From a virus, in the IMG/VR virus record IMGVR_UViG_3300045947_000193, positions 1 to 64,000 of that record: 64,000 nt of DNA. One strand, 5' to 3'. The notes under the pieces are model-generated. The model had not been told where the DNA came from, made no database searches, and saw nothing but the letters and a program-made list of their open reading frames with translations. A program made the position numbers and the translations under genes. The first letter of the stretch is position 1. Each line of letters begins with the position of its first letter. Shown here piece by piece: positions 2,551 to 43,408 of the stretch.

Positions 2551-3132
2551 ATGCGCCTGGCTGCCCTGCTCCTCTGCGGGCTCCTCCTGTCTGCCTGCCC
2601 TGCCTCTGAGACGGTGGTCCTGGTGCGCCAACTCCGCGACACCACCGGCGCCGTCACCATAGAGTCAGGCACCCAGACGCAGACGCTCAGCGCCCCCCTG
2701 CACACGGCCACCCACGACGGGGACCGGCTGCGCACCAGCGTGTCCAGCCAGACAGATGTCCGGGAGCAGTTTGGCCCGACGCTGGACGCGCTCCCCGCCG
2801 CCTCACAGGTGTACACCGTCTACTTTACTACCGGCAGCACGGCCTTGCTCCCCGCGTCCAGTGCCCTGGTCGACCGCATTGTCGAGGAGGTAGCCCGGCG
2901 CCGTGCGGTCGAAGTGCAGGTAACCGGCCACACAGACCGCGTGGGGAGCCTGGAGAGCAACGACCAGCTTTCTGAGCAGCGCGCCGCCGCTGTCCGCGAT
3001 CTGCTGAGCGCACGCGGACTGCATGCGTCCCTGGTGCGCGTGGTGGGACGCGGGGAGCGAGAGCCCCTGGTGCCCACCCCGGACGAGACCCCGGAGCCTC
3101 GCAACAGACGAGTGGAGATACTCATAAGGTAG
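2551..3132 (+). CDS. OmpA-domain lipoprotein
   Basis: The start ATG 2551 gives a lipoprotein signal with lipobox LSAC (Cys16). After a variable region, residues 88-193 form an OmpA C-terminal peptidoglycan-binding domain: VYFTTGSTAL at its start, VQVTGHTDRVGSLESN in the middle, LSEQRAAAVRDLL, and NRRVEI at the end. The Asp and Arg of TGHTD and NRR that bind diaminopimelate are present. The product should anchor in the outer or inner membrane and grip the cell wall. A peptidoglycan-linked lipoprotein could act like a spanin or modify the lysogen envelope. It also shows that the host has diderm-type lipoproteins. Confidence 0.85.
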   Translation: MRLAALLLCGLLLSACPASETVVLVRQLRDTTGAVTIESGTQTQTLSAPLHTATHDGDRLRTSVSSQTDVREQFGPTLDALPAASQVYTVYFTTGSTALLPASSALVDRIVEEVARRRAVEVQVTGHTDRVGSLESNDQLSEQRAAAVRDLLSARGLHASLVRVVGRGEREPLVPTPDETPEPRNRRVEILIR

Positions 3133-3136
3133 GGCT

Positions 3137-3724
3137 ATGGCAGAGACCAACGAGCACCCCAAAGCCGCCAAGTGGTGGCAAACGATGTTGACCACCCCGG
3201 CCTTGCTCTTGGCCCTAGGGGGAGGCATTGGGACCGCCATCCCCGCTGTCTGGCAGGAGTACAAAGCCTGGCGCTTAGGGGTGCAAGCGAACCAGCTTCA
3301 GCAGATCGAAGACCAACAAGTGCTGTGGGAGAAAAATCTCCATTGCTTGCGCGTGAAGCCCGTCTACACGATCACCCTGGACGCGGACGTAGAGGTGGGC
3401 GTCATTTTGTGCCAGAGCGGCGATGCGCTCCTGCGCTACCAGCGCGCGCCGGAGGTGGTGACCTACACCTGGATACCGTACCCCAGGCATAAACCCGTGC
3501 CGGAGCCCCAGCACTCCAGCGCTGGGGACCTGGTGACCCCGCAGACGCGCGTGGTCTATGGCGCCACGCGCTGCGTGATCCTCCAGGCTCGTCTTCTCGC
3601 GTGGGTGCTTGCCGATGATGACACGCTCCAGCGCTGTCACATTGAGTACATTACCCTCGTGCGTGGCACGCTCCTAGAGCGTCGCGAGCTGCCCTGTACG
3701 CGCTGTGAGGATGCCACGAGCTAG
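3137..3724 (+). CDS. Single-pass membrane protein, unknown
   Basis: The 195-residue product begins four bases after the OmpA gene. One hydrophobic segment (about residues 18-40, TTPALLLALGGGIGTAIPAVW) follows a short charged N-terminus, and the rest contains a short coiled stretch and a Cys-containing beta-like domain. The topology (N-in, soluble C-terminal domain outside) and neighbours suggest it works with the FecR and OmpA proteins at the envelope. It ends the left operon, facing a convergent gene. Confidence 0.6.
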   Translation: MAETNEHPKAAKWWQTMLTTPALLLALGGGIGTAIPAVWQEYKAWRLGVQANQLQQIEDQQVLWEKNLHCLRVKPVYTITLDADVEVGVILCQSGDALLRYQRAPEVVTYTWIPYPRHKPVPEPQHSSAGDLVTPQTRVVYGATRCVILQARLLAWVLADDDTLQRCHIEYITLVRGTLLERRELPCTRCEDATS

Positions 3725-3759
3725 ACCCCTCGCCTCAACTTCTGATAGAAACCATTATG

Positions 3760-4290
3760 TCAACTTTGGCGATATGTCTCTGAGCTAAAGAGTGCTAAGA
3801 AAGATGGTGGCAAAGCAAACCATTCCCCCTGCATATGCCAGTCATGTAATTGCTGATGGAGATAATGCTCACAGGCAAAAGCATCCATCACCAAGACTTT
3901 AGCAGCGACTTCTAAATGCCACATACTCCCAACTTGTAGACCACCTAACCGCGTCTCTGGCTTGAGGCTGCGCCCTATCTTGACGTATTCGGTCCCCTGT
4001 GCCCGGATGAAATACACATACTCCTTGCCTGGTGGGGTATGCACAGGAAGGGGAGGGTGCAAATTCCGACAGGCGGCAGCGATCCCGGCAAGCCTGGTAA
4101 GGTCCTCGACCGTATACGCTGGCCTGTCCTGCAGGGCCAGGTACTGGATGAGTGCCTTGTTGACCACGTCCGACATAGACCGCGCATGGGCCATAGCAAA
4201 CGCCGCAAGGTGGGTGCGCAGGCGGAGGGGAATCGACACGCTCAAAAGCACACCGGGATTCGTATCTCTGGTACAATGGACAGCATCCAT
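3760..4290 (-). CDS. RHH plus T5orf172 (GIY-YIG-like) protein
   Basis: The start at 4290 follows GAGGAGACAAGCCTC on the minus strand; the longer frame has no support. Residues about 10-50 (SVSIPLRLRTHLAAFAMAHAR then SDVVNKALIQYL) resemble a ribbon-helix-helix DNA-binding segment. The C-terminal half (EYVYFIRAQGTEYVKIGRS, then LQVGSMWHLEV, EHYLHQQLHDWHMQGEWFAL) is a T5orf172/MUG113 domain, related to GIY-YIG nucleases. It lies alone on the minus strand between convergent and divergent neighbours, with its own candidate promoter and leader hairpins. It may be a mobile endonuclease or a regulator. Confidence 0.75.
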   Translation of the reverse strand: MDAVHCTRDTNPGVLLSVSIPLRLRTHLAAFAMAHARSMSDVVNKALIQYLALQDRPAYTVEDLTRLAGIAAACRNLHPPLPVHTPPGKEYVYFIRAQGTEYVKIGRSLKPETRLGGLQVGSMWHLEVAAKVLVMDAFACEHYLHQQLHDWHMQGEWFALPPSFLALFSSETYRQS

Positions 4291-18089: not shown

Positions 18090-18435
18090 AGACGCGACGA
18101 TTGAAGGCTGGGCGATTGTCGCCCAATTTGGACACCGCAAGCTGGCAGGGTACGTGAGTACCAATACCTTTGGCAACAACAGCCTGCTCAGGATTGACGT
18201 ACCGGCGAGCCCCTACGCGCCCGCGTTTACGTCCTACCTGGGCATCAGCAGTATCTTTGACCTGACGATGGTCACCGAAGAGATTGTACACGCCACCCTG
18301 GCCACTCTGAAGCCGCGCCCGGTGACCGTGTACGAGCCCTACCAACAACTGAGCCCGCCGCGTGTAGAGGAGTGGGACCAGGCCCAGGAGGACGACGGCG
18401 ACGCCTACGACGAGGAGGACCAGCCGTATGAGTAA
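18082..18435 (+). CDS. Conserved phage early protein, unknown
   Basis: ATG 18082 follows AAAGGAGATGC. The 117-residue protein reads EGWAIVAQFGHRKLAGYVST, then LLRIDVPASPYAP and IFDLTMVTEEIVHATLA, a pattern I recall from uncharacterised phage proteins encoded near replication or recombination genes. The C-terminus is acidic (EEWDQAQEDDGDAYDEEDQ). Confidence 0.65.
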   Translation: MAEDATIEGWAIVAQFGHRKLAGYVSTNTFGNNSLLRIDVPASPYAPAFTSYLGISSIFDLTMVTEEIVHATLATLKPRPVTVYEPYQQLSPPRVEEWDQAQEDDGDAYDEEDQPYE

Positions 18436-18772
18436 GCCCGAGACGCTCCGCATCTGCCCGCAGTGCGACGCCGCGACGCGCGCCACGCCGCACCAGCTCT
18501 ACATGGAGGCAGGTGTCAACCTGGACGGCGAAGGCTTTGTACACCTGGCCTGGCGTAAGGAGCGTGCCCAACTGACCCCCGACGAAGCCCGGCAGCATGC
18601 CCTGAGCTTGATCCAGATAGCCGAAGCCGCCGACTATGAGGCAGCCTTTGTGCGCTGGTGTCAGGCCCGGTTAGAGATGAGCCTGGAGCAGGCCGCCCGG
18701 ATGCTAGAGGACTTGCGCACCTTCTTTACCGTGGCTGAGGAGCGCCCACTAGGGAGGGGACGCTATGAGTGA
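18428..18772 (+). CDS. Small protein before terminase, unknown
   Basis: The 114-residue product overlaps both neighbours by eight bases. It starts CPQCDAATRATPH and is otherwise helical (LTPDEARQHALSLIQIAEAADYEAAFVRWCQARLEMSLEQAARMLEDLRTFF). It has one Cys pair only. No family was recognised. Confidence 0.6.
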   Translation: MSKPETLRICPQCDAATRATPHQLYMEAGVNLDGEGFVHLAWRKERAQLTPDEARQHALSLIQIAEAADYEAAFVRWCQARLEMSLEQAARMLEDLRTFFTVAEERPLGRGRYE

Positions 18773-19235
18773 CCCGGACGCCGCCGCTTTTTCCAACCCG
18801 CTGCCCCGCTATAAATTCTGGGAGAAGCGCGTGATTGCTGCCTATCTGCGCATGCTAGGCCACAGTCAGAAAGCCGTGGCAGCGGCAGTCAACCGCAACG
18901 TGCGCACCATACGGAATTGGGAAAACGAGACGGCCACCTGGACCCAGGCCCGTGACGAAGCCGCCGCGCGCTGGCTCTCGGACCTGGTCGACGCCGCGCG
19001 GGGGACCGTGCTCACCGCTGTGCAAGGGGGAGACGCCGCCCTGGCCCTGAGTATCTTAGAGCGCAGGCTCCCCGAACTGGCGCCGCCCAAGTCCCGCGTA
19101 GAGCTAAGCATCCCGTGGGACAACCTGACGGATGACCAACTCCGCCGCATCGCGAGCGGGGAACCCCCCGCCAAGGTGTTGAGCTATGTCAACGCTGGTC
19201 TCCATCCAAGCGGAGGCGCTCCTCCGGTGGCGTGA
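18765..19235 (+). CDS. terS: Terminase small subunit
   Basis: The 156-residue protein has an N-terminal HTH (KRVIAAYLRMLGHSQKAVAAAVNRNVRTIRNWENETATW), a helical oligomerisation part (ARDEAAARWLSDLVDAARGTVL, then GDAALALSILERRLPELAP), and overlaps the large subunit gene by 50 bases. TerS recognises the packaging site and regulates the large subunit ATPase. Position and architecture make this a strong call. The packaging site itself was not identified. Confidence 0.85.
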   Translation: MSDPDAAAFSNPLPRYKFWEKRVIAAYLRMLGHSQKAVAAAVNRNVRTIRNWENETATWTQARDEAAARWLSDLVDAARGTVLTAVQGGDAALALSILERRLPELAPPKSRVELSIPWDNLTDDQLRRIASGEPPAKVLSYVNAGLHPSGGAPPVA

Positions 19236-20013
19236 ACGCCAGCGCCAGGAGCAGGCCGCCAGTGTCAGTGCCTGGCGTGACCAGGCTGCAGCGAGCTGTC
19301 GCATTCCCCATGCCCAGCAAGTGCGCTTTCTAGAGTCACCTAGCAAGCGCAAGGTGATCCGAGCCGGGAGGCGTGGGGGGAAGACGGTAGGCATGGCCTT
19401 GCTGGCAGTCCGCGCGTTTCTGGCAGGCCGCCGTATCCTCTATGCTGTGCCCACCCAGGAACAGATGGACCGCTTCTGGTTTGAGTGCAAGCTGGCCCTC
19501 AGTGCCGCCATTGACGCGGACCTCCTGTACAAGAATGAGACCAGGCACGTCATAGAGGTACCGGGGACGGAGAACCGCATACGGGCAAAGACAGCCTGGA
19601 ACAGTGACAATTTGCGCGGAGATTACGCGGACCTAATTTTGCTTGACGAGTACCAGTTGATGGCCGAAGATGCGTGGGGAACCGTAGGTGCTCCCATGAT
19701 GGCGGACCGGGATGGCGATTGCGTTTTTGTATTCACTCCGCCCTCATTCCGTAGTGCCAGCGTGTCCAAAGCGCGCGACAAACAGCACGCGATTAAACTC
19801 TATCGGCAAGCAGCTCAAGATACGACTGGACGCTGGGAAGTCTTCCATTTTTCAAGCCAGGATAATCCGCACATCTCCGCCTCAGCCCTTGAAGACTTAG
19901 CCGAAGACATGACAGAGCTGGCCTATCGCCAGGAGATTTTAGCGGAGGATTTGGAAGACAACCCTAACTCGCTTTGGCGTCGCGAACTCATTATATATAA
20001 AGGTCTTTCTTGA
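19186..20013 (+). CDS. terL: Terminase large subunit, ATPase half (split gene)
   Basis: The 275 residues are the motor part of TerL: Walker A GRRGGKT (61-67), Walker B LILLDE with D154-E155, and a coupling-type block FVFTPPSFRS. It stops in frame shortly after NPNSLWRRELI, just where an intact TerL would continue into its nuclease domain. That domain is encoded separately at 20847-21359, after an HNH gene. The last about 400 bases use visibly more A/T-rich codons than the first half, like the inserted endonuclease. The two halves probably assemble as a split packaging motor. Confidence 0.9.
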   Translation: MSTLVSIQAEALLRWRERQRQEQAASVSAWRDQAAASCRIPHAQQVRFLESPSKRKVIRAGRRGGKTVGMALLAVRAFLAGRRILYAVPTQEQMDRFWFECKLALSAAIDADLLYKNETRHVIEVPGTENRIRAKTAWNSDNLRGDYADLILLDEYQLMAEDAWGTVGAPMMADRDGDCVFVFTPPSFRSASVSKARDKQHAIKLYRQAAQDTTGRWEVFHFSSQDNPHISASALEDLAEDMTELAYRQEILAEDLEDNPNSLWRRELIIYKGLS

Positions 20014-20021
20014 TTTTTGGC

Positions 20022-20069
20022 TATACTTAAAGAGTCTACCCACGGGAGAGACACCGGCTCTCCCGTGGG
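20022..20069 (+). promoter_or_regulatory. Candidate promoter and leader hairpin of the inserted HNH gene
   Basis: TATACT at 20022-20027 is a possible -10 box. A perfect 12-bp stem (CCCACGGGAGAG at 20039-20050, complement at 20058-20069, seven-base loop) begins 11 bases later and ends 33 bases before the HNH start. It lacks a T-run. The gap between the TerL stop and the HNH gene is too short for a group I intron core. Confidence 0.55.
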
Positions 20070-20101
20070 CTTCACCACGTTAGCTATTGGAGGTAGCTAC
20101 C

Positions 20102-20839
20102 ATGGCTCTGAGCAGTATAGCATGTACAATCGCGCACTGTGATCGTCCTGCTTATCGGTATGGCTGGTGTCGCCGCCATCATTACCGCTTCCTGGTGCAT
20201 GGCGATCCTGAAGGCGGAGAGCCTTTGCGCAACACCGAGCACGCCGCAACGTGTGCCATCCCTGGGTGTAACCGCCCCTATGTAGGGAAGGGGCTCTGTG
20301 GTCTACATTACCAACGGCGTGCCCTGCATGGGGACCCGCTCTATCGCCCACGCTGGTACAAAGATCAACCCTGTACCGTGCGCGGCTGTAAAAATTTACA
20401 ACGCTATGAAGGCTATTGTAGTAAGCATCAGCAACGCCTCAAAAAGCATGGCGATCCCACTATACGGCTCATAGCAGAGACCGGCAGTGGAACCATCTCC
20501 CGGCAAGGGTACCGCCGTGTCTATAAGCCAGGGCATCCAGGCGCCACCAAAACGGGCTGGATGCTAGAGCATCGCCTTGTGATGGCGGAGATGCTAGGGC
20601 GTGCGTTGCTCTCAGACGAAGTGGTGCACCACAAGAACGGGAACCGCCTAGACAATCGCCCGGAAAACCTGGAGTTGTGGCTCAAATCGCAACCCCCAGG
20701 CCAGCGAGTTATGGACCAACTTACATGGGCACGCCAGATCATTGCGCAATACGGACACCTGGCGCGCAGTCCATATTTCCAGGATGGTCACACGGACACA
20801 AGGCAGCCCGACAGCGCGCAACTCTCTCTCTTGGAGTAA
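20102..20839 (+). CDS. HNH homing endonuclease inside the terminase locus
   Basis: ATG 20102 lies after GGAGGTAGC. The 245 residues have three N-terminal zinc-type repeats (C-x5-C-x3-Y/V-x2-G-x-C-x2-H-x-R-x4-HGDP forms) for DNA binding, then an HNH nuclease: [38 protein letters not shown]. The C-terminus reads QLSLLE, a weak clamp-box resemblance. It separates the ATPase and nuclease halves of TerL with its own ribosome site and likely promoter. Such free-standing genes spread by cutting uninvaded alleles; the intact TerL junction would be the expected target. Confidence 0.85.
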
Positions 20840-20846
20840 GTATCCT

Positions 20847-21359
20847 ATGCCCACCTACAAGGACGCCGCCCGTATTGTGATAGCGGTCGACCCGGCTGTC
20901 ACGTCGACCAGCAGCAGTGATGAGGTGGGGATTGTGGTCTGTGCTCGTAGCCTTGATCACACGGGCTATGTGCTGGAGGACCTCAGCGGACGCTTTAGCC
21001 CGGAGCGCTGGGCACGCCGGGTGAGCGATGCCTATTGGGACCTGCAAGCGGACCGGGTGGTAGCCGAAGTCAACAACGGGGGAGATATGGTGGAAGCCGT
21101 CCTGCGTATGGTGGACAAGGAAATCAGCTACAAGGCCGTGCATGCCAGTAGAGGCAAGCAGACCAGAGCGGAGCCCATAGTAGCCTTGTACGAGAAAGGC
21201 CGCATCTTTCACACCAGACCCTTCCCCGCGTTGGAGGATGAACTCTGTAATTGGGACCCGACCAGTGGCGCCCGCTCTCCCTCACGCCTGGACGCCCTGG
21301 TCTGGGGCTTTACCGAGCTATTTCTAGGCATGCGGGCGGGCCGGGTGGTGTTGATATGA
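20847..21359 (+). CDS. terL: Terminase large subunit, nuclease half (split gene)
   Basis: ATG 20847 has TTGGAG upstream, so this half can be translated alone. The 170 residues form the RNase H-like nuclease domain: D15 in VIAVDPAVTS, VVAEVNNGGDMVEAVLR, the SRGKQTRAEPIVALYEKGRI block, and D149 in SRLDALVWGF. It is in a different frame from the ATPase half. Together the two lack only a handful of residues compared with an intact TerL. This is a true gene split, not a decayed remnant, because both catalytic parts are intact. Confidence 0.88.
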   Translation: MPTYKDAARIVIAVDPAVTSTSSSDEVGIVVCARSLDHTGYVLEDLSGRFSPERWARRVSDAYWDLQADRVVAEVNNGGDMVEAVLRMVDKEISYKAVHASRGKQTRAEPIVALYEKGRIFHTRPFPALEDELCNWDPTSGARSPSRLDALVWGFTELFLGMRAGRVVLI

Positions 21360-21538
21360 GCGAACTCCCCCGCTTTTTTCTGGTGTGTGTCGCCTGTCGC
21401 AGCGTGCTGGTGTTGCTGAGCGGGAGCCGTGACAGCGACGGCGTCTGGCTGGTGATGCACTGCGCTGGCTGTGGTGCGACGCAACGCGCCGGACCGCTGG
21501 CCATGGAGGAAGACCCCGCATGCCCGCACACCGCCTGA
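21356..21538 (+). CDS. Small zinc-ribbon protein (60 aa)
   Basis: The start overlaps the TerL-C stop (ATGA). It has CVACRSVLVLLSGS and HCAGCGATQ, a compact two-pair zinc ribbon, and ends EEDPACPHTA. Unknown function. Confidence 0.6.
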   Translation: MSELPRFFLVCVACRSVLVLLSGSRDSDGVWLVMHCAGCGATQRAGPLAMEEDPACPHTA

Positions 21539-21567
21539 CCGTAGCACTTGGATAGGACAGTATCCCC

Positions 21568-22683
21568 GTGGCTCTCGTGGAAGTGCTCCACCCGCTCAAC
21601 CCGTGGCATGCCGCTGTGACGCGCGCCGTGGACGCGGTCGACGCCTACGCCCCGCACCCGTCCGCCTTGCTGCGCCGCCTGGTGGTCTATGCGCATGGGC
21701 GCTTGCGCCACCGTCCCCTGTGGGACGCGATGCAGGCCCGTGGCTGGTCCCAGCGCGACCTCTGCGACTTCTTAGGGTGCACCTATGCCAATGGCACAAA
21801 GATGGTCTGCTTGCAACACATCCCCACCTCGCCCACCATCCAGCGCCGCCTGATGGAACTCACCGGCTGGGCCATCGACGATCTTTTTCCGCCTGTGTTT
21901 TTCCAGGCGCTCTGGAATACGCACCGCGCGACCAGCCGCGCCACCCCGCGCGCGATCCGCCAGGCGTGGTACCCGGAGCCGAGCCCGGACCCGGCCACCG
22001 CGTACCAGGAGGGGGAGCTGCAGCGCGTTGTGCGGGGGGAGCTAGACACCCTCACCCCCAACCAGCGCACCGTGCTTGAGGGGTATTTTGGGCTGGAAGG
22101 GCCACCGCAGACCCTGGAAGCGCTGGCCAAAACCCAGGGCAAGAGCTACGAACGTATCCGCCAGATGCGAGACGCCGCGCTCCGCAAGCTCAGCCACCCC
22201 GCGCACCGTGCCAGACTCAGGCCGTACCTGGAGGACCTCGACGGCATCCGTCCCACCTGGGGACGCATGGCCTACCTGCCTGAGAGGGATGCGCCAGCGC
22301 CACGCCCGAAGCCACCCCCGGCGCCGCTGCCCAAGGTCTACACCTGGCACCGCACCCCCTGGCCGATCACGCAGCCCGCTGACCTGGTGCTGCAGGCCAC
22401 CGACGTGCCCGGCTGGGAGCTACAGCGCGCGCTGGGACCAGGGGAGCATGTACTAGGGTTTGAAGTGGTCACCTTTGACCAGGAGGGCACCGGCTGGACC
22501 ACGTCCCCGGCCACCATGACCCAGGCCCTCCTGTTCCCGGAGATGTTCCGCGTGCGTCGACGCCCACAGCCCCCGCCGCCGATCTTTACCGTGCTACCGG
22601 GCACGCTGCGCTGTCTCATACGGTGGAAGATTCACGGCACCCCTTTTTTGCCCGCAACACGGGAAAGGAGCAAGCAACGATGA
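21568..22683 (+). CDS. Sigma-70 region 4-like regulator with N-terminal HTH
   Basis: A GTG start gives 371 residues. Residues about 55-115 look like an HTH (MQARGWSQRDLCDFLGCTYANG, then HIPTSPTIQRRLMELTGWAIDDLFP). Residues about 153-208 match sigma region 4: LDTLTPNQRTVLEGYFGLEG, PQTLEALAKTQGKSYERIRQMRDAALRKLSH. After a Pro-rich linker, residues about 280-332 (WELQRALGPGEHVLG...VVTFDQEG...FPEMFRV) resemble the N-terminus of the capsid-operon protein at 62545. Regions 1-3 of a sigma factor are absent. It follows the terminase genes and is a candidate late transcription activator. Confidence 0.7.
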   Translation: MALVEVLHPLNPWHAAVTRAVDAVDAYAPHPSALLRRLVVYAHGRLRHRPLWDAMQARGWSQRDLCDFLGCTYANGTKMVCLQHIPTSPTIQRRLMELTGWAIDDLFPPVFFQALWNTHRATSRATPRAIRQAWYPEPSPDPATAYQEGELQRVVRGELDTLTPNQRTVLEGYFGLEGPPQTLEALAKTQGKSYERIRQMRDAALRKLSHPAHRARLRPYLEDLDGIRPTWGRMAYLPERDAPAPRPKPPPAPLPKVYTWHRTPWPITQPADLVLQATDVPGWELQRALGPGEHVLGFEVVTFDQEGTGWTTSPATMTQALLFPEMFRVRRRPQPPPPIFTVLPGTLRCLIRWKIHGTPFLPATRERSKQR

Positions 22684-22859
22684 CCGATGACCAGGAGTAT
22701 GCCGCTGACCTGCTAGAGGAAATGTGTGGCCCGCTGGATGAACTCCTAGCCGAGTACAAGGACGCCTTCACCCCGGCACAAACGAAGAAGCTAGGAGAAA
22801 TCCGTGACTGCATAGAGGAAATGCTCACCGAACTCCAGGAGAGCCCAGACGATGTCTGA
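22680..22859 (+). CDS. Small acidic protein, unknown
   Basis: AAAGGAGCAAGC precedes ATG 22680. The 59 residues are acidic and helical (QEYAADLLEEMCGPLDELLAEYKD, then KLGEIRDCIEEMLTELQ). The gene overlaps both neighbours. An anti-sigma or regulatory helper of the preceding protein is conceivable but not shown. Confidence 0.6.
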   Translation: MTDDQEYAADLLEEMCGPLDELLAEYKDAFTPAQTKKLGEIRDCIEEMLTELQESPDDV

Positions 22860-23214
22860 GGACTGGCGCAGTGACCTGGAAACCGCCCTCTTTACCCGGC
22901 TGCCCGCCCATGAGCCGGACTGGACCTATGAGGGGAGCCAGTACGTGGCAGAGCGGGCACTAGAGGACGTGCGTGGACAACTGTACTTTGTGGAAACGTG
23001 GAGCGACCGACGCACGCACAAGGTAGCGGGGAGCTGGCGCCTGGCCCTAGAGGCTGGCGCCTTTGTGGGTGTCCCCGACTGGCTGTTACAGCGCAGCGTG
23101 GACACCCTAGTGCAGGCGATAGCGCGCGAACGTCCGAAGCCCAAGACGCGCACCGAGCCCGAGACGTTCAACCCTGGGAGATTTGCCGCACAGGAAGGCC
23201 GCAGACGTGGCTAG
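22852..23214 (+). CDS. Small protein, unknown
   Basis: The 120-residue product overlaps its upstream neighbour by eight bases and meets the next gene tail to tail. It contains WTYEGSQYVAERALEDVRGQLYFVETWSD and a basic C-terminus (PKPKTRTEPETFNPGRFAAQEGRRRG). No family was recognised. Confidence 0.6.
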   Translation: MSEDWRSDLETALFTRLPAHEPDWTYEGSQYVAERALEDVRGQLYFVETWSDRRTHKVAGSWRLALEAGAFVGVPDWLLQRSVDTLVQAIARERPKPKTRTEPETFNPGRFAAQEGRRRG

Positions 23215-23660
23215 CGCCCCGCCCGCTCTGCCTGCTCCCGTAATTCCTTGATACGCTGCTCTGCGCCTGTGGTGCGTGGCTCACTGGCAGGCCGCGCCGC
23301 TGGCTGTGCCGTAGGCGTGGGCGTGGCATGGAGCGCCGCGCCTGTGAAGAGGAGCACCCCGGCAAGTAGGCCCGCCGCCATGCACGTCCCCAGCGTGGTG
23401 AGGACCTCGACGACCAGGCTGGCACTGCCTGGCTTGTCTGGAGGGACCGCGCCCGGCGCACTAGGGAGGACGGCGATCACCAGCGCGAAGGGACCCAGCA
23501 CGTAGGTGAGGAGACTCCACACCACCGCACTACGCCCACGGACCAGGGCACAGTAGGCCACCAGCCACCGGAAAGGGAAGCTCAGGAGAATCACGACCAC
23601 CGCCAGCAGGAAGAGGGGAGCAACACCCCCGTACCAGGGGGACCAGGTTGGCGTACCCAT
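23211..23660 (-). CDS. Membrane protein, three or four helices
   Basis: The 149-residue product has hydrophobic segments at about 13-35, 45-67 and 84-108, and a charged C-terminal helix (EQRIKELREQAERAG). It converges with the preceding gene, with overlapping stops. It is the last gene of a leftward accessory cluster that runs from 25704. A superinfection-exclusion role is possible for such a protein in a temperate phage, but nothing in the sequence proves it. Confidence 0.65.
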   Translation of the reverse strand: MGTPTWSPWYGGVAPLFLLAVVVILLSFPFRWLVAYCALVRGRSAVVWSLLTYVLGPFALVIAVLPSAPGAVPPDKPGSASLVVEVLTTLGTCMAAGLLAGVLLFTGAALHATPTPTAQPAARPASEPRTTGAEQRIKELREQAERAGR

Positions 23661-26376: not shown

Positions 26377-26478
26377 GGCTCTACATAGACAAAGAGCATA
26401 GACCAGGGAACGCCAGCCAGCACCCCTATGCCTATGCTCCTTGATGGTCCGTACCACGTACCATGGAAGAGAGTATAC

Positions 26479-27087
26479 ATGACAGCAAGTGGTTATATCT
26501 ATGCCATAGGAGTAGACGGTAGCCCTGGTGTCAAAATTGGTTGTACGCGGACGGCTGTAGCAAAACGTCTGGCACAGCTCCAAACAGGGCACGCTGAGCA
26601 GCTCACCCTTTTTGCAGCAGTAGAAGTCAGAGAGCACCTTTTTGCTGTGGAAGACCTCATCCACCGCGCCCTTGTTGCGCACCAACTAACCGGAGAGTGG
26701 TTTGCATGCACCATGACGCCAGAACGTCTCAGCGCGTTGGTCACACAAGCCCAGGCGACACTCTCACGCACGCCAGCGACCGATGGAGAGGACGCGATCA
26801 TTGACGACATTTTAGCGGCATGTGGACTGAGTACCTCGCAGAAAATGTTGCTCATTGTCCTTGCGTCTCTCCCCCCACTGGCGACCGGAGGCGTCCCTCC
26901 CTCTCTCCGTCGCCTGGCGCAGCGCAGTAGCCTGGCCCTCTCCACGGTCTGCACGCTCCTCAAGGACCTCACAGAGCGTGGCTACCTGACCGTCCAACGC
27001 AGGCACGGCCACAGGCAGGGCAATGACTACCGCATCAACCGCGCGCGCCTGGCGCAGGCCGACCATGTCAGAGAGGGGAGCATATGA
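26479..27087 (+). CDS. T5orf172 domain fused to winged helix
   Basis: Start ATG 26479 has AAGAGAG six bases before it. Residues 1-85 are a T5orf172/GIY-YIG-like domain: YIYAIGVDGSPGVKIGCTRTAVAKRL, AEQLTLFAAVEV, IHRALVAHQLTGEWFAC. Residues about 115-190 form a winged helix: STSQKMLLIVLASL, PPSLRRLAQRSSLALSTVCTLLKDLTERGYLTVQRR, nearly the same as in the next gene. The upstream leader has an 8-bp stem (GAGCATAG/CTATGCTC, near 26396 and 26433). The shared helix suggests it arose by fusion of a mobile endonuclease-like domain to an initiator DNA-binding domain. Confidence 0.75.
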   Translation: MTASGYIYAIGVDGSPGVKIGCTRTAVAKRLAQLQTGHAEQLTLFAAVEVREHLFAVEDLIHRALVAHQLTGEWFACTMTPERLSALVTQAQATLSRTPATDGEDAIIDDILAACGLSTSQKMLLIVLASLPPLATGGVPPSLRRLAQRSSLALSTVCTLLKDLTERGYLTVQRRHGHRQGNDYRINRARLAQADHVREGSI

Positions 27088-28070
27088 CGTATGCTATCCA
27101 TCCCCCTCAGCTTGAGGCGATCTTTGGGGACAACACCCTCAGCCCGTCAAAAAAACTCCTCTTACTTGTGCTGCAGAGCCATGCGAGTGGTCCAGGGCAA
27201 GGCGTGTATCCCTCACTGCGCCGCCTTGCTTCATATAGCGGGCTTTCTCTCGCGCATGTCTGCACGCTTTTACCCGAACTGGAAGCCAGCGGACACCTGG
27301 CTATTCAACACCGCCAGGGTCCGAAAGGCGGCAATGTGTATGTACTGACCCTCTCCACTGTACCAGTAACTGGAGCACCATCTACTGGAGCTGTACCAGT
27401 GGCTGGTACTCATCAGGCTGGTGCTCCACTGGCTGGAACAGAATTAAATACTGAAAGGGAAAAGGCTTTAATTCTCTTCCAGACCCCAGAGCACCAGTCA
27501 GTGGTGCTCCAGCCAGTGGTACACCCGACCACCGTCAACGAGGCTGGCGCCCACTGGCTACGCCATCAAAGCGGTATAGACCCTCACCATGACTTTTATG
27601 GTGCACTTGCTGGGACTCCGCCGTCAGAACCCGAGACCACCCTAGAGCCGCCAACACCCCCAGCCGAATGGTCCACCATAGAGCTAGAGACTCCCCCTAC
27701 CGACCCGGCGAACGCGGACACCCCCGTTATTGACATCACCCAGCGCACACCCCGGAAGCCCCGCACCCGCAATGCACCTGGAACGGCGCCGCTGAAGCTG
27801 GGCAAGCTGTGCCCCCGTGGCCATGAGCATGAAGAGACAGGGATGAGTCTCCGCCGTGTCCCAAGTGGAAGTTGCGACCTCTGCGAACGGGAGCGGCAAC
27901 GGGAACGCGACCGCGCCAAAAACCCCAACCCACGCGCCCACAAGCCCTATAACTGGCAGCGACCGCCAGCCACCGCGCGCGTCATTCTCGCCCCAGGGGA
28001 AGCCCCTCGACAGCGCGAACACCGGGCGCATGCCCTGCATGTTGCGCAACAAGGAGCAAAACATGAGTAA
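27084..28070 (+). CDS. Second wHTH replication initiator-like protein
   Basis: The 328 residues start with a winged helix: SPSKKLLLLVLQSHA, YPSLRRLASYSGLSLAHVCTLLPELEASGHLAIQHRQG. A middle segment, TGAPSTGAVPVAGTHQAGAPLAGT, is encoded by CTGG-containing DNA repeats 15-18 bp apart that are followed by an AT-rich inverted repeat. The C-terminal third is basic with CPRGHEHEETGMSLRRVPSGSCDLCERERQRERDRAK, a zinc ribbon. The plan repeats that of the O-like gene at 6922, so it may start replication at a second origin or regulate the first. Confidence 0.65.
   Translation: MTYAIHPPQLEAIFGDNTLSPSKKLLLLVLQSHASGPGQGVYPSLRRLASYSGLSLAHVCTLLPELEASGHLAIQHRQGPKGGNVYVLTLSTVPVTGAPSTGAVPVAGTHQAGAPLAGTELNTEREKALILFQTPEHQSVVLQPVVHPTTVNEAGAHWLRHQSGIDPHHDFYGALAGTPPSEPETTLEPPTPPAEWSTIELETPPTDPANADTPVIDITQRTPRKPRTRNAPGTAPLKLGKLCPRGHEHEETGMSLRRVPSGSCDLCERERQRERDRAKNPNPRAHKPYNWQRPPATARVILAPGEAPRQREHRAHALHVAQQGAKHE
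27358..27509. repeat. Iteron-like cluster plus AT-rich inverted repeat inside the second initiator gene
   Basis: CTGG-led repeats begin at 27370, 27385, 27403, 27418 and 27433 (CTGGAGC, CTGGAGC, CTGGTAC, CTGGTGC, CTGGAAC). CTGTACCAGT occurs at 27358 and 27391. An AT-rich stretch follows with GAATTAAA (27441-27448) and its complement TTTAATTC (27468-27475). GAGCACC (27489-27495) and GGTGCTC (27503-27509) form another inverted repeat. The 15-base steps also encode a pentapeptide-like repeat, so some regularity may be protein-level. Confidence 0.6.
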
Positions 28071-35920: not shown

Positions 35921-37108
35921 ATGGAATGCTGGCAGATTGGGACAGCAACGCTGTATTGTGGAGATGCGCTTGCTGTGCTCCCCATGCTTCCAGACGCAAG
36001 TGTTAATCTCATCATCACAGACCCGCCCTACTACCGTGTGAAGGACGAAGAGTGGGACAAGCAATGGGCCAGCGCGGACGCCTATCTCAGTTGGCTCAGA
36101 GACCTGGCCAAAGCCTGGCAGCGCGTGCTCACCCCCAACGGCAGCCTGTATTGCTTCGCCTCACCCCAGATGGCCGCGCGCGTGGAGGTAACGCTGGCGG
36201 AGGTGTTCCAGGTACTCACGCATATTGTGTGGACGAAGACCGACCCCCAGGGACAGGCTAAGGGCTGGAGTCAGAAGGCCAGCAAGGAAGCACTGCGGCA
36301 GTTTTTCCCGCAGACGGAGCGCATCCTCTTTTGTGAGCAGTACGGCGCCGATGAGGCAGACCAGGCCCTGCGCGCGCGCATCTTTGCCCCGCTCCGCGCC
36401 TATCTGGAGGGCGAACGCCAGCGGGCAGACATTGACAAAATCGCCTGCAATGTGGCGCTAGGCTTCCGGCCTATTGCTGGAGGCATGGCCAGCCGCCACT
36501 ACTTCAGCAGCTCGCAATGGTGCTTACCCACGCGCAAGCACTACGCCGCCCTGCAGGACCTGTTCAACCGTCAGGGACGCCGCCCTCTCCCCAACGTGCA
36601 CCCGTACCACCCGGCAGACAGCCCGCTCATGGATGACCCGGACGCCGCTTACAGGTATCTCCCGCGTGACTACAACGCCCTCCTGGCGCACTACCGTTTG
36701 CTGGATGCACAGTACCAGGCCCAGCGTGCGCCCGTGCATCGCCCGTTCCAGGTGTCTGCCAGCGTGCCCTATACCGACGTGTGGACGTTTGCCCCGCTCA
36801 TGGTCTTACCGGGCAAGCACCCGGCTGAGAAACCGCTCTCTCTGCTGCGCCACATGATCCGCACCTCTTCCCGCCCTGGGGATACCGTGCTGGACTGCTG
36901 CGCCGGGAGTGGCAGCACCCTGGACGCCGCGCGTGCGTGTGGCCGTCAGGCCATCGGTATCGAACTCCAGGCCCGTTGGTGCTCTATGGCCAGTAGTCGA
37001 CTGCGCCAGCTTGCCCTCTTCCCGGACGTGGACGAATGCACGTACACCGCCATCGACCGCAGCACGGGGATGCACCCCAGGGGCTTTTTTACCCCGCGTG
37101 CACCCTAG
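35921..37108 (+). CDS. DNA methyltransferase (N4/N6 amino type) with clamp-type box
   Basis: The 395-residue protein has catalytic DPPY at 34-37 (NLIITDPPYYRV), a target-recognition middle, and the AdoMet site DCCAGSGSTLDAARACGRQAIGIEL around residue 325. The order DPPY then F/CxGxG marks the beta class. QLALF lies at 363-367, in a linker after the catalytic fold, matching the beta-clamp consensus. It would modify phage DNA against host restriction or alter gene control. No cognate endonuclease is adjacent, so it is an orphan enzyme. Confidence 0.85.
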   Translation: MECWQIGTATLYCGDALAVLPMLPDASVNLIITDPPYYRVKDEEWDKQWASADAYLSWLRDLAKAWQRVLTPNGSLYCFASPQMAARVEVTLAEVFQVLTHIVWTKTDPQGQAKGWSQKASKEALRQFFPQTERILFCEQYGADEADQALRARIFAPLRAYLEGERQRADIDKIACNVALGFRPIAGGMASRHYFSSSQWCLPTRKHYAALQDLFNRQGRRPLPNVHPYHPADSPLMDDPDAAYRYLPRDYNALLAHYRLLDAQYQAQRAPVHRPFQVSASVPYTDVWTFAPLMVLPGKHPAEKPLSLLRHMIRTSSRPGDTVLDCCAGSGSTLDAARACGRQAIGIELQARWCSMASSRLRQLALFPDVDECTYTAIDRSTGMHPRGFFTPRAP

Positions 37109-39066: not shown

Positions 39067-39086
39067 AGAGAACCAGCGCGATATGT

Positions 39087-39143
39087 TACAATTAGGACAC
39101 ATAACGAGCGAATCCCGGCGATGCGCCAACACCACCGGGATTC
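39087..39143 (+). promoter_or_regulatory. Promoter and leader hairpin of the GIY-YIG gene
   Basis: TTAGAG (39063-39068) and TACAAT (39087-39092) are 18 bases apart, a possible promoter. GAATCCCGG (39110-39118) pairs with CCGGGATTC (39135-39143) around a 16-base loop. The start at 39179 lies 35 bases further. The layout matches the leaders of other endonuclease genes in this window. Confidence 0.5.
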
Positions 39144-39178
39144 TCGCCATACCGCCATGCATCAGGAGTGCACGCGCC

Positions 39179-39985
39179 ATGACTATTGTCCATGATAGCA
39201 TATCGCCCTTTTCTCGCAGCACCGCGCAAGGAATCTACCGCATTGTCCACCGCGCTACAGACCGCTGGTACATTGGAAGCGCGGTCAACTTCGCTGCGCG
39301 CATACAACTCCATCTGCGACGGTTGCGAGCAGGGAGGCATCACAGCCCAAAGCTCCAAGCCGCCTGGACCATGTACGGTGAGGATGCTTTTGCTTTTGAG
39401 CTAATCGAAGCCGTCCCCGACCGCGATCTACTCAAGGCGCGCGAACAGTTCTACCTGGACACACTCAAGCCGCATTTCAACATCGCGCTTAGTGTCACGG
39501 CTCCGATGCTTGGAAGAAAACAAAGCGCGCGCTTTGCGGCTGTACAAGCTGCCCGTCCGCATCCTTCCCCCTCCCCTGAACTGCGGGCACGCATCAGCGC
39601 TACGTTGACGGGACGCAAGAAAGGCCCTGTCCCTCTTGAACGACGCCAACGCATTGCCGCCACACTCAAAGGCCATACGGCGAGCGCTGAGACGCGCGCC
39701 AAAATATCCGCCAATCGCAAGGGATTTACACACACTGAGGAAGCTAAGGCCCGGATACGCGCTTCATCCATTGAGCGTGCACGCTTTTTTGTTCCTGCCC
39801 TTGCTGGAGAAGACAACCCACAGGCCAAGCTCTCATGGAGCACAGTACGGACAATCCGTAGCCGATACCGCCCCGGCGTCGTGACACTCAAGCAGCTTGC
39901 CCATGAATATGGCGTGGATGGGACGACGATCAGCCTAATCGTGCGCGGGAAAATCTGGAAAGAGGCAATGCTATGCTCAGACTAG
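39179..39985 (+). CDS. GIY-YIG homing endonuclease with NUMOD3 repeats
   Basis: AGGAGTGCACG precedes ATG 39179. The first 90 of 268 residues are a GIY-YIG nuclease: GIYRIVHRATDRWYIGSAVNFAARI, FAFELIEAV, EQFYLDTLKPHFNI. Three NUMOD3-type motifs follow (SPELRARISATLTGRK, LERRQRIAATLKGH, SAETRAKISANRKG, with a fourth partial), then an HTH (LKQLAHEYGVDGTTISLIVRGKIWK). This is the I-TevI/SegA-like layout of free-standing homing enzymes. It sits between two head-operon genes and overlaps the next by 13 bases. Confidence 0.88.
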   Translation: MTIVHDSISPFSRSTAQGIYRIVHRATDRWYIGSAVNFAARIQLHLRRLRAGRHHSPKLQAAWTMYGEDAFAFELIEAVPDRDLLKAREQFYLDTLKPHFNIALSVTAPMLGRKQSARFAAVQAARPHPSPSPELRARISATLTGRKKGPVPLERRQRIAATLKGHTASAETRAKISANRKGFTHTEEAKARIRASSIERARFFVPALAGEDNPQAKLSWSTVRTIRSRYRPGVVTLKQLAHEYGVDGTTISLIVRGKIWKEAMLCSD

Positions 39986-40447: not shown

Positions 40448-43408
40448 ATGCGTTTTGTGCTCACCCTCAACCGACTGCGCAGCACCGCCGACCTGCTCAA
40501 AGCCTACGTGCGTGGCCACCGGCGCCACCTGCCCAGCGGGGAAACGGTGTGGGTGGAGCCCTATCACACCTCCGTAGTGGCCCAGCCACAACTGACGCTT
40601 TTCCACCCCAGGCCCGCCCCCAAAGAGGAGCCCCCCACCCCCGCGCCCCCACGCCCCGCGCTGGAGCCTGCCCGGCCCATGCGCCAGCAGTCCCTGTTCG
40701 ACCTGCTCCGCCCGGCGCCGAAGCCGGAAGCACAACCCGAGCCCGCGCCCCGGCCCGTGATCCCGCCGCGCGTGGAACCCGTGGTGCCGAAGCCCCCAGC
40801 CCCGGCCCTGGTGCTCACCCCGCCCGCCGCTGAGCCCGCGCCCGAGCCACGGCCACCGACCACCCAGGACGTGCAGCGTGTGGCGCCTGTGCACCCGGAT
40901 GCCAAGCCCCACCCCACCCTTATGGACTGCATTGAAAGCCTGGCTGGCCAGTGTGATGGCGCCCGCACAAAAGACGAGGTGGGCTTTGCAGGCCCCGATG
41001 CCATGTGGGGCAAAATGCTGGCCATGTCTGGGAACGACCGCGACTGGACCGACGACGAACGCCGCGCCGCCTGGGAACGACTGCGCAAGTACAAGGGGCA
41101 ACTGGCCCGCAACGGCATTGACTTTGACGCCATCCCCGTGCCCCCACCGATGGACCGCCCAGACGACCGGCCCCGGCGCCAGGCTGCGACCACCACAACG
41201 ACGAGCACCCCGGAGGACGGCCCTGGTGTGTGGCGCTGGATTGACGGGCACGCCGTCTTTATCCCGGAGCATGAGCGGCAGAGCTACGACAAAGCCGACA
41301 TGAGCGCGTCGACCGTGACCGCCTTCCCTGGCCATATCGGGCTGCACTTTAAGTATGACCCGCGCCTTGTGGCCCTGGTCAAGACTGTCAGAGGCGCCCG
41401 CTGGAACCCGATCACTAAAAGCTGGAGCGTCCCCATGGAGCGCTTCCAGGAGGTGATCGACCTGGCCAACGTCGACATGACCCAGAAGGCCATGGCCGCC
41501 TGGCAGGAACACCAGGAGCGCGCTGTAGCCCGCGAGCAGGCCCAGGCCGAAGCCAACGCCCTCCTCAGTGAAGCAGACCGTGGTTTTACCCAGGACATTT
41601 TGATGCTCACCCCGGAGCAGCTCGCCCAGGTGGACACGCTCGACAACTGGACCCGTGGCACCTTCCTTCCGTCCAATCTGGGGAAGTCACGCGACCGCCT
41701 GAGCCCCAAGCAGTTACGCATTGTCGACCGGGCACAGGAGGAGCTAGACAACTGGCTCAATGCCAACCCGCACCAGCGCGCCATGTTCGCCCAGGCGTGG
41801 CGTGACCGGGAGGGCCAGCTCAAGGCCGCTGCACAGGCCAAGACTAACGAACTCGACGCCCTCAGCCATGACCAGGACATCAGCAATTTTCAAATGCCCG
41901 CTGGCTTTAATCCGGCTGTGCTCACCGGAGGGGAACTCTACCCGCACCAGAAGCAAGGCGTGGCGTGGCTCATGCGCGCCAAGGCAGGCATTCTCGCCTT
42001 TGCTACCGCGCTGGGCAAAACCAACACGGCTGTGACCGCCGCCGCCAAGCTCCAGGAAGAGGGCAAGGCCAAACGCTGCCTGTTTGTGGTCCCCAGCGCC
42101 CGCAAAATTGGCACGATACGGGACATCAAGGCGTTATTCCCTGGCAAAAAGGTGGTACTGGTCGACGGCACCCCGGCTGAGCGTGCCCGGCAGTACCGCG
42201 ACGCGGAAACGGCGGACTTTGTGGTAGCAGGCTACGGGCTTATCCAGCGCGAACCGGAGAAGCTCCATGGCTCAGGCTTTGACATTGTGATCAATGACGA
42301 AGCCGTCCGCCTCAAGGGCAAAAGCAGCCAGACCGCCAAGAACAGCAAGGAGTTTTTCAGCGCGCCGTATACCTGGGACCTCAGCGCTACCCCGATCCCC
42401 AACAGCCCGGAGGACCTCTACCAGCTCATGCAACGGCTGCAGCCAACCCTCTTTGGCTCCCGTGCCCAATTCTTGCGCCAGCATTGCCGCACAGACCGCG
42501 TCTATGCACAAGGCCGCATGATCACTCGCATAACCGGCTACCAGAACCTGGCCTATACCCGCAGTGTGGTAGCGCCCTATATCCTGGCCAGGACCTGGCA
42601 GAGCCCGGACGTGCAGATTCCCATGCCCGAGCGGCGCAACGCCCGGCAGACGCTCGACCTGCACCCGGCGCAGTCCGTCTACTACGAAGCCGCGCGGACT
42701 GGCGCCCTGGAAGCCCTCAAGCGTGTGAACAACCCTGGCCAGATGACACGGGAGGAGCGCGCCAACATCCTGACCAACATCTTGCGCATGGAGCAAGTGG
42801 CCATCACCCCGGAGCTGGTCGACCCGTCCTACAAGGGGGAAGCGCCCAAGGTGGCAGAAGCCGTGCAGATGGTCAAGGACCACTTTGGCGCCGGACACAC
42901 CAAGGCGTGCGTGATCTATTCCCACTACCTGCCCGTGATCGACATCCTGCAGCGGGAACTCCAGAAGGAAGGCTTGACGAACGGCGACATTGCCACCATC
43001 AAGGGTGGCATGACGCCTGAGAAAATCCAGGACATTGTTGACGGGATCAATACCGGCAAGCACAAGGTCCTGATAGCGTCGGACGCCGCCGCCGAAGGGT
43101 TGAACTTGCAGCACAACTCGCAGATGCTCTTGCACATGGACACGCCCTGGCGCCCGGACATCTTAGAGCAACGAGAAGGCCGCATCTACCGGCCTGGCCA
43201 GACGGCTGACGTGGTGATGATGCGCCTTATGACCAACACCTCTGTGGAGCAACACAAGGACAACCTGGTCAAGCGCAAGGCTGGCGCCCAGCGCGCGATT
43301 GTGCACGGGGAGAGCCCCGCCGATGATCCCGAGATGAGCTACGAGGACTTTTTAGCACTCGTTGGCGCCACCGACAGCGAGAAGAGAGGCATGCGCCATG
43401 CAGCTTGA
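40448..43408 (+). CDS. SNF2-family helicase, polyvalent-type protein with clamp-type boxes
   Basis: The 986 residues begin with a KGHWR-like module (VRGHRRHLPSGETVWVEPY) followed by QLTLF (48-52) and QQSLFDL (80-86) in a long Pro-rich linker. Residues about 155-240 form a helical domain with WTDDERRAAWERLRKYKGQL. Residues about 255-345 resemble a HARP domain (GLHFKYDPRLVALVKTVRGARWNPITKSWSVP). The SNF2 motor has LGKT (about 520), DEAV (about 616), SATPIPN, and C-terminal ASDAAAEGLNLQ and REGRIYRPGQ. Lone SNF2-HARP proteins can anneal or remodel DNA. Position after Mu gpF fits proteins delivered with the genome. Confidence 0.85.
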   Translation: MRFVLTLNRLRSTADLLKAYVRGHRRHLPSGETVWVEPYHTSVVAQPQLTLFHPRPAPKEEPPTPAPPRPALEPARPMRQQSLFDLLRPAPKPEAQPEPAPRPVIPPRVEPVVPKPPAPALVLTPPAAEPAPEPRPPTTQDVQRVAPVHPDAKPHPTLMDCIESLAGQCDGARTKDEVGFAGPDAMWGKMLAMSGNDRDWTDDERRAAWERLRKYKGQLARNGIDFDAIPVPPPMDRPDDRPRRQAATTTTTSTPEDGPGVWRWIDGHAVFIPEHERQSYDKADMSASTVTAFPGHIGLHFKYDPRLVALVKTVRGARWNPITKSWSVPMERFQEVIDLANVDMTQKAMAAWQEHQERAVAREQAQAEANALLSEADRGFTQDILMLTPEQLAQVDTLDNWTRGTFLPSNLGKSRDRLSPKQLRIVDRAQEELDNWLNANPHQRAMFAQAWRDREGQLKAAAQAKTNELDALSHDQDISNFQMPAGFNPAVLTGGELYPHQKQGVAWLMRAKAGILAFATALGKTNTAVTAAAKLQEEGKAKRCLFVVPSARKIGTIRDIKALFPGKKVVLVDGTPAERARQYRDAETADFVVAGYGLIQREPEKLHGSGFDIVINDEAVRLKGKSSQTAKNSKEFFSAPYTWDLSATPIPNSPEDLYQLMQRLQPTLFGSRAQFLRQHCRTDRVYAQGRMITRITGYQNLAYTRSVVAPYILARTWQSPDVQIPMPERRNARQTLDLHPAQSVYYEAARTGALEALKRVNNPGQMTREERANILTNILRMEQVAITPELVDPSYKGEAPKVAEAVQMVKDHFGAGHTKACVIYSHYLPVIDILQRELQKEGLTNGDIATIKGGMTPEKIQDIVDGINTGKHKVLIASDAAAEGLNLQHNSQMLLHMDTPWRPDILEQREGRIYRPGQTADVVMMRLMTNTSVEQHKDNLVKRKAGAQRAIVHGESPADDPEMSYEDFLALVGATDSEKRGMRHAA

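Follow-up and report, generated by a model that had tools for sequence, protein, structure and literature searches.

A phage large terminase gene interrupted by an HNH endonuclease gene between its motor and nuclease domains

Introduction

Can a phage DNA packaging motor act as two separate polypeptides? Models based on T4 hold that the hinge between the motor and nuclease domains of the large terminase (TerL) couples ATP hydrolysis to DNA movement. When T4 gp17, which has an inter-domain surface of >1000 square angstroms, was split at the linker, the ATPase and nuclease activities were kept and translocation was abolished in vitro (PMC3012670). The question is raised by the terL gene of an uncultured phage represented by a 66,383-base IMG/VR contig (IMGVR_UViG_3300045947_000193), of which the first 64,000 nucleotides were analyzed here (the window). 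An earlier note on this DNA, made from the letters alone, had proposed that an HNH gene divides terL in the manner of the split nrdA/mobE locus of an Aeromonas phage. Both Aeh1 nrdA/mobE and the split gene 43 give active two-piece enzymes (PMC2988022). Given the outcome of the T4 gp17 linker split, however, a working two-piece packaging motor would be surprising and is a bolder proposal than the analogy with nrdA.

Results

terL consists of three adjoining ORFs

In the window, terL is made up of three adjoining ORFs on the + strand (19186-21359): an ATPase (motor) half of 275 aa (19186-20013), an HNH homing-type endonuclease of 245 aa (20102-20839) and an RNase H-like nuclease half of 170 aa (20847-21359). 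Profile matches and coordinates agree with the original assignment of an HNH gene between the motor and nuclease ORFs, and the ~90 bases said to precede it and fewer than 10 said to follow it were measured as 88 nt and 7 nt, the latter being a + strand spacer from the HNH stop to the nuclease ATG (20840-20846). Directly 5´ of the motor half and overlapping its start lies an ORF on the + strand (18765-19235) for a probable small terminase, an HTH protein, which matched HTH_23 (E=4e-4) and, weakly, the terminase-small-subunit family phrog_2538 (E=0.018). The earlier note had allowed that an intact terL might be encoded elsewhere in the genome. A search of the entire 66,383-bp contig gave one N-half and one Terminase_6C match only, and no second terL was found in the contig.

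The same three-ORF split was found in a second contig, G001 (IMGVR 3300045930_000277), where the spacer before the nuclease ATG is 5 nt. Among ~115 viral loci surveyed, this pair of contigs, which is one population deep, is the only place where the split was seen, and among the relatives compared an HNH ORF at the terL joint was detected in the window and L038 only.

The interruption falls in the linker between the two domains

The motor half matched phrog_2 TerL (E=5e-23) and Terminase_6N (E=4e-4, narrowly below the cut-off of Pfam). Its Walker A sequence (RAGRRGGKT), Walker B residues (D154/E155) and T184-P185 motif are the residues invariant in 22 intact relatives, as expected from the Walker motifs first noticed in this 275-residue ORF. 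Modelled alone, the motor half had a mean pLDDT of 81 and was confident to ~residue 257 with a disordered tail (258-275), and its best Foldseek matches and PDB match were isolated ATPase domains of P74-26 TerL. The nuclease half matched Terminase_6C (E=1.6e-12) and phrog_979 TerL (E=4e-28). Its RNase H triad corresponds to D15/E74/D149, at positions invariant in intact relatives, and a GGAG Shine-Dalgarno (SD) sequence (20833-20836) lies 10 nt before the ATG at 20847, bearing out the claim of a separate 170-residue nuclease ORF with its own ribosome site. The folds, motifs and domain order are those of P74-26, T4 gp17, HK97 and MetMV TerL, which are single polypeptides with a linker, whereas the window has two ORFs.

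Alignment to intact TerL homologues, which the note had suggested as a check, showed that the joint is continuous in relatives and interrupted in the window. A first genome-contig scan with a single protein query gave no matches. In 26 relatives terL is one reading frame through the joint, and 19 further intact TerLs were obtained from named bacterial and archaeal metagenome-assembled genomes, giving ~45 intact relatives altogether. The TerLs of relatives are 58-71% identical to the window in the motor half, and no HNH-free allele was found nearer than ~71% identity in this half. terL is thereby seen to be interrupted by the HNH gene exactly between the motor and nuclease domains: the cut is in the linker that connects the final helix of the ATPase domain to the first strand of the nuclease. 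When the intact relative L028 was modelled (pLDDT 88.7), the equivalent position lay where helix 237-243 ends, ahead of nuclease strand 251-259. No target-site duplication was evident, the longest direct repeat across the insert being 5 bp, as expected by chance.

The linker, counted from motor residue 269 to nuclease residue 9, is ~12 residues long in most relatives and longer in a few. Motor residues 1-269 are homologous to intact TerL, and the final six (IYKGLS) are not. Compared with the intact form, the split form lacks ~five linker codons, among them the codons for one Arg and one Pro found without exception in the 23 intact relatives that were aligned, and has gained these six residues and a new start codon. 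The earlier judgment that both halves look intact therefore holds for the domains, whose catalytic residues are kept, but not for the linker, from which the Arg and Pro are gone.

The HNH gene is preceded by a stable hairpin

The product of the HNH ORF matched HNH_3 (E=1.3e-10) and phrog_20891 (E=1e-29) and contains three Cys/His knuckle repeats. Its relatives are free-standing phage genes; the copy in Gordonia phage Kabocha is directly 3´ of an intact terminase, and others adjoin head, methylase and polymerase genes. The HNH gene has a GGAGG SD sequence with a spacing of 8 nt to the ATG at 20102. The 5´ part of the insert (19993-20101, + strand), recognized by a drop in GC content, comprises an AT-rich start, a strong hairpin and a hairpin at the HNH ribosome-binding site (RBS). 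Its GC content is 0.46 compared with 0.58 for the motor half, and is 0.30 in the 40 bases from 19980. The candidate hairpin reported beside the HNH gene proved real: a 12-bp G+C-rich stem-loop on the + strand 5´ of the RBS (20039-20070; -25.4 kcal/mol, z -5.0), with no U run after it, for which none of 200 shuffled sequences was as stable. A second, weak stem-loop (20080-20105, + strand; -10.5 kcal/mol, z -0.86), whose stem is shared by the second contig, encloses the SD sequence and start codon of the HNH gene. We could not substantiate the candidate promoter proposed for this gene, as there is no sigma70-like site on the + strand in 18700-21700. In a search of viral_contigs from which records near the window's own may have been excluded, the 5´ sequence of the insert occurred only in the second contig, and the hairpin pattern in its exact form was not found. 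Another homing endonuclease gene, of the GIY-YIG type with NUMOD3, is located at 39083-39985 of the window, just 5´ of an SNF2-type helicase gene (40448-43408).

Routes by which the two halves could be rejoined

The insert could be a self-splicing intron, of a degenerate or unknown type, that encodes the HNH protein, with the visible stops and starts being intronic and splicing restoring a continuous TerL. Phage terL genes are often interrupted by spliced group I introns with HNH genes (PMC11878797, PMC12363816, PMC10448857), and joining 19186-20004 to 20847 would give a linker whose length, 12 residues, is exactly that of most relatives. However, the covariance-model search for intron RNA that the note had recommended was negative: at E<=5, 19900-20950 gave no match to Rfam, and at E<=10 neither contig had a match to a group I intron (RF00028), although eight control genomes were positive in the same search. 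The non-coding part of the insert comes to ~115 nt altogether, in contrast to the 350 +/- 108 nt of non-coding sequence in the group I introns of Bastillevirinae (PMC11878797), and the contention that too little sequence flanks the HNH gene for a group I core agrees with these empty searches. A group I intron was rejected at the sensitivity of the tools, the conserved core (P3-P8) being detected in neither contig.

The translation signals also argue against splicing. Each part of the split terL has its own translation start, with GGAGG and GGAG SD sequences preceding the two downstream ORFs. Additionally, a 2-nt indel that distinguishes the contigs, located 1-2 nt past the HNH stop, shifts the frame upstream of the nuclease half (WSKYP- vs LGVRP-). 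Given this change of frame, the nuclease half probably does start at the ATG at 20847, which is preceded by the GGAG, and a 3´ splice site 5´ of this ATG is unlikely. Overall, we consider it unlikely that an intron restores TerL.

Two other routes were rejected. For an intein or split intein, the motor half has six extra residues only and the nuclease half is without intein homology; because the motor half ends 6 aa past the conserved helix, room for an intein half is lacking. For ribosome bypass or frameshifting, the halves are in different frames and ~830 nt apart, with many stops between them.

Both halves are under purifying selection in two diverged contigs

The window and G001 are collinear across 46.4 kb. 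Comparison of the two contigs gave protein identities of 89% for the motor half, 97% for HNH and 99% for the nuclease half, with NG86 dN/dS values of 0.12, 0.062 and 0.040, respectively (dS 0.26-0.67), and no stops or frameshifts in the three ORFs of either haplotype. Purifying selection acts on all three ORFs, and both halves are maintained. The presence of the same split in G001, the low dN/dS and the lack of stops indicate that the split is not a fresh lesion. As it is shared by diverged alleles under selection, the split is older than the divergence of these alleles.

These data bear on the possibility that terL is broken and that the phage is defective or reliant on the TerL of a helper. 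This would account for the loss of linker residues and would fit the T4 precedent, in which the split motor does not translocate. However, selection on both halves across diverged haplotypes, free of frameshifts and stops, argues against a defective phage, and the remaining 41 kb is identical in the two contigs, as for a circulating phage; we regard a broken terL as improbable. The HNH dN/dS of 0.062, as tight as for the terminase halves, could instead reflect domestication of the HNH protein, which would then be part of the packaging complex as its third subunit and might bridge the halves. The gene is in the same operon as both halves, and the HK97 HNH protein gp74 acts with terminase (PMC10448857, PMC9410871). 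Low dN/dS is also expected from selection for homing, however, and in both its knuckle repeats and the context of its family the protein is like free-standing homing endonucleases, leaving domestication a slim prospect. That an assembly or strain-mixing artefact made the split or the divergent tract is highly improbable: strain mixing could have occurred there as the second contig ends inside the tract, but the split is present in two contigs with ~7% local divergence and identical architecture.

The differences between the contigs are concentrated around terL-HNH. From 23247 to 64552 (41 kb) there is 1 base difference, while base-by-base comparison revealed 352 differing alignment positions in ~5 kb between 18141 and 23246, the left limit of this tract being the end of G001. 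Within the tract, identity drops to ~73% in a patch at 19500-19920, and there are zero differences at 19968-20058, the 5´ edge of the insert. Repeated rounds of gene conversion at an endonuclease gene would produce such a tract; this reading is suggestive only, however, because both alleles carry the HNH gene and G001 ends inside the tract. We note that 18141-23246 is, in comparison with G001, a candidate strain-level recombination hotspot around terL-HNH. A gene for a sigma-70 region 4 protein (21568-22683), close 3´ of the nuclease half, is nearly invariant between the two contigs.

The two halves have different closest relatives

The motor half falls within a single TerL clade, with a median identity of 64% to its 27 members compared with 18% for the other set, and its sister is L005 (98/81). 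The closest relatives of the nuclease half are from another set (best 64%, L039) with motor domains that show no relationship at this level, and the two-residue insertion of this set in DPAVTS..SD is also present in the nuclease half. The window/L005 pair has identities of 0.74 in the motor and 0.45 in the nuclease domain, which is at the bottom of the range for pairs with that identity in the motor. Constraining the nuclease half with the sisters of the motor half, L005 and L025, was rejected (p=5e-5), while an AU test constraining it with the nucleases of the whole main motor clade gave p=0.07, disfavored but not rejected. When more sequences were added, the grouping of the nuclease half with L039 was weak (81/69).

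On the basis of these phylogenies, we conclude that the terL halves are of mosaic ancestry. Since they have different closest relatives, the split TerL is not one ancestral TerL simply cut in two. We do not claim that the HNH gene caused the mosaic: intact motor-clade TerLs with clade-B-like nuclease domains and no HNH exist (L020, L026, L163 and L168), which indicates that module exchange at the linker recurs without an HNH gene. The idea that HNH was carried in with the nuclease domain was dropped, given these HNH-free combinations and the AU test (p=0.07). The different ancestries of the halves and the concentration of divergence around terL-HNH are the new findings of this analysis. We also observed that, within a single TerL motor clade, the nuclease domain is of at least three kinds, the main type, the clade-B-like type and a 'GHDFG' type, as seen by comparing L033, L036, L037 and L167 with L003-L035 and with L020, L026 and L163.

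Discussion

A putative two-piece terminase

The reading that we favor, with a probability of about 0.62, is that a free-standing HNH gene split terL and that the products act as two polypeptides. A homing-type HNH gene carrying an RBS of its own and preceded by RNA hairpins would have inserted at the ATPase/nuclease linker, turning one gene into three cistrons for motor, HNH and nuclease. The motor and nuclease would be translated separately, the latter by means of an SD sequence of its own that overlaps the stop region of HNH, and would assemble non-covalently with each other, the portal and TerS to package DNA. Homing would keep the HNH gene, which may drive gene conversion around itself. 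We infer HNH cleavage and homing, the non-covalent assembly and the packaging activity.

Whether this is a natural packaging motor whose ATPase and nuclease domains are separate polypeptides of different ancestry, with no need for a covalent linker, we consider evenly balanced. The missing Arg and Pro, invariant in the linker of relatives, count against a two-piece motor. Given the T4 result, the possibilities are a motor that tolerates the missing tether, splicing that has escaped detection or a defective phage. If true, a natural two-piece TerL under purifying selection would mean that the covalent hinge is dispensable and would provide a ready test of inchworm-type versus ATPase-ring-only models. 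A homing endonuclease gene sits here at the joint of repeated terminase module exchange, and by such insertions at joints selfish genes could reshape essential phage machines.

Relation to known systems

The likeness to nrdA/mobE first pointed out for this locus extends to the organization and to the hairpin 5´ of the endonuclease RBS. In Aeh1, as here, the gene for an essential enzyme is divided by an HNH gene of the homing type, with no intron or intein, both parts have their own starts, and a hairpin is present at the endonuclease RBS (PMC2988022). The terL split has the features of the nrdA/mobE kind, namely continuity in relatives, no rejoining element, own starts and selection. However, two-piece function is proven for NrdA, whereas terL encodes a packaging motor for which action in two pieces is inferred; in addition, the terL halves have different ancestries and the terL HNH is of the knuckle-repeat type. 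An endonuclease gene also lies between the parts of an essential gene in gene 43/seg43(25) of Aeromonas phage 25, where a very stable hairpin is found just 5´ of the endonuclease RBS, and in T4 topoisomerase/mobA (PMC2988022). These systems differ in having other host enzymes and, for seg43(25), a Seg endonuclease, and the gene 43 split may predate the endonuclease (PMC2988022).

Interruptions of terL have been published for Bastillevirinae (PMC11878797), Jug phages (PMC12363816), ICP1 (PMC10448857), Campylobacter phage IBB_35 (PMC3322345) and mycobacteriophages (PMC5050341). As in these phages, terL here is a favored target of homing elements, HNH ones included. In the intron- and intein-interrupted genes, splicing restores one TerL, whereas no splicing element is detectable in the split terL and each of its pieces has its own translation signals. 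In the part of the literature covered, we found no case of an unspliced split terL, the interruptions, Mic1 included, being introns or inteins.

Interruptions of other kinds were observed among the relatives. In the TerL of L024, an intein is located toward the end of the nuclease domain (Hint and Intein_splicing matches; L024:285-2351 and 1559-2194; L027); L026, L029 and L034 lack it. A different frame of the DNA encoding this intein contains an HNH ORF (HNH_3, E=3.7e-18), which resembles the 'hidden HNH' (PMC11855218) but is inside an intein. In L176, from a Ca. Methanoperedens metagenome-assembled genome, terL is interrupted precisely at Walker A by ~1.05 kb (~2950-4001), probably an intein, that separates motor residues 66 and 67. 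Elsewhere in the window, an N6/N4 DNA methylase (35921-37108) has a Pfam match of 221 positions spread over 330 residues, with ~110 inserted, and two adjoining genes (26428-28070) both match phage replication initiation (O-like) families.
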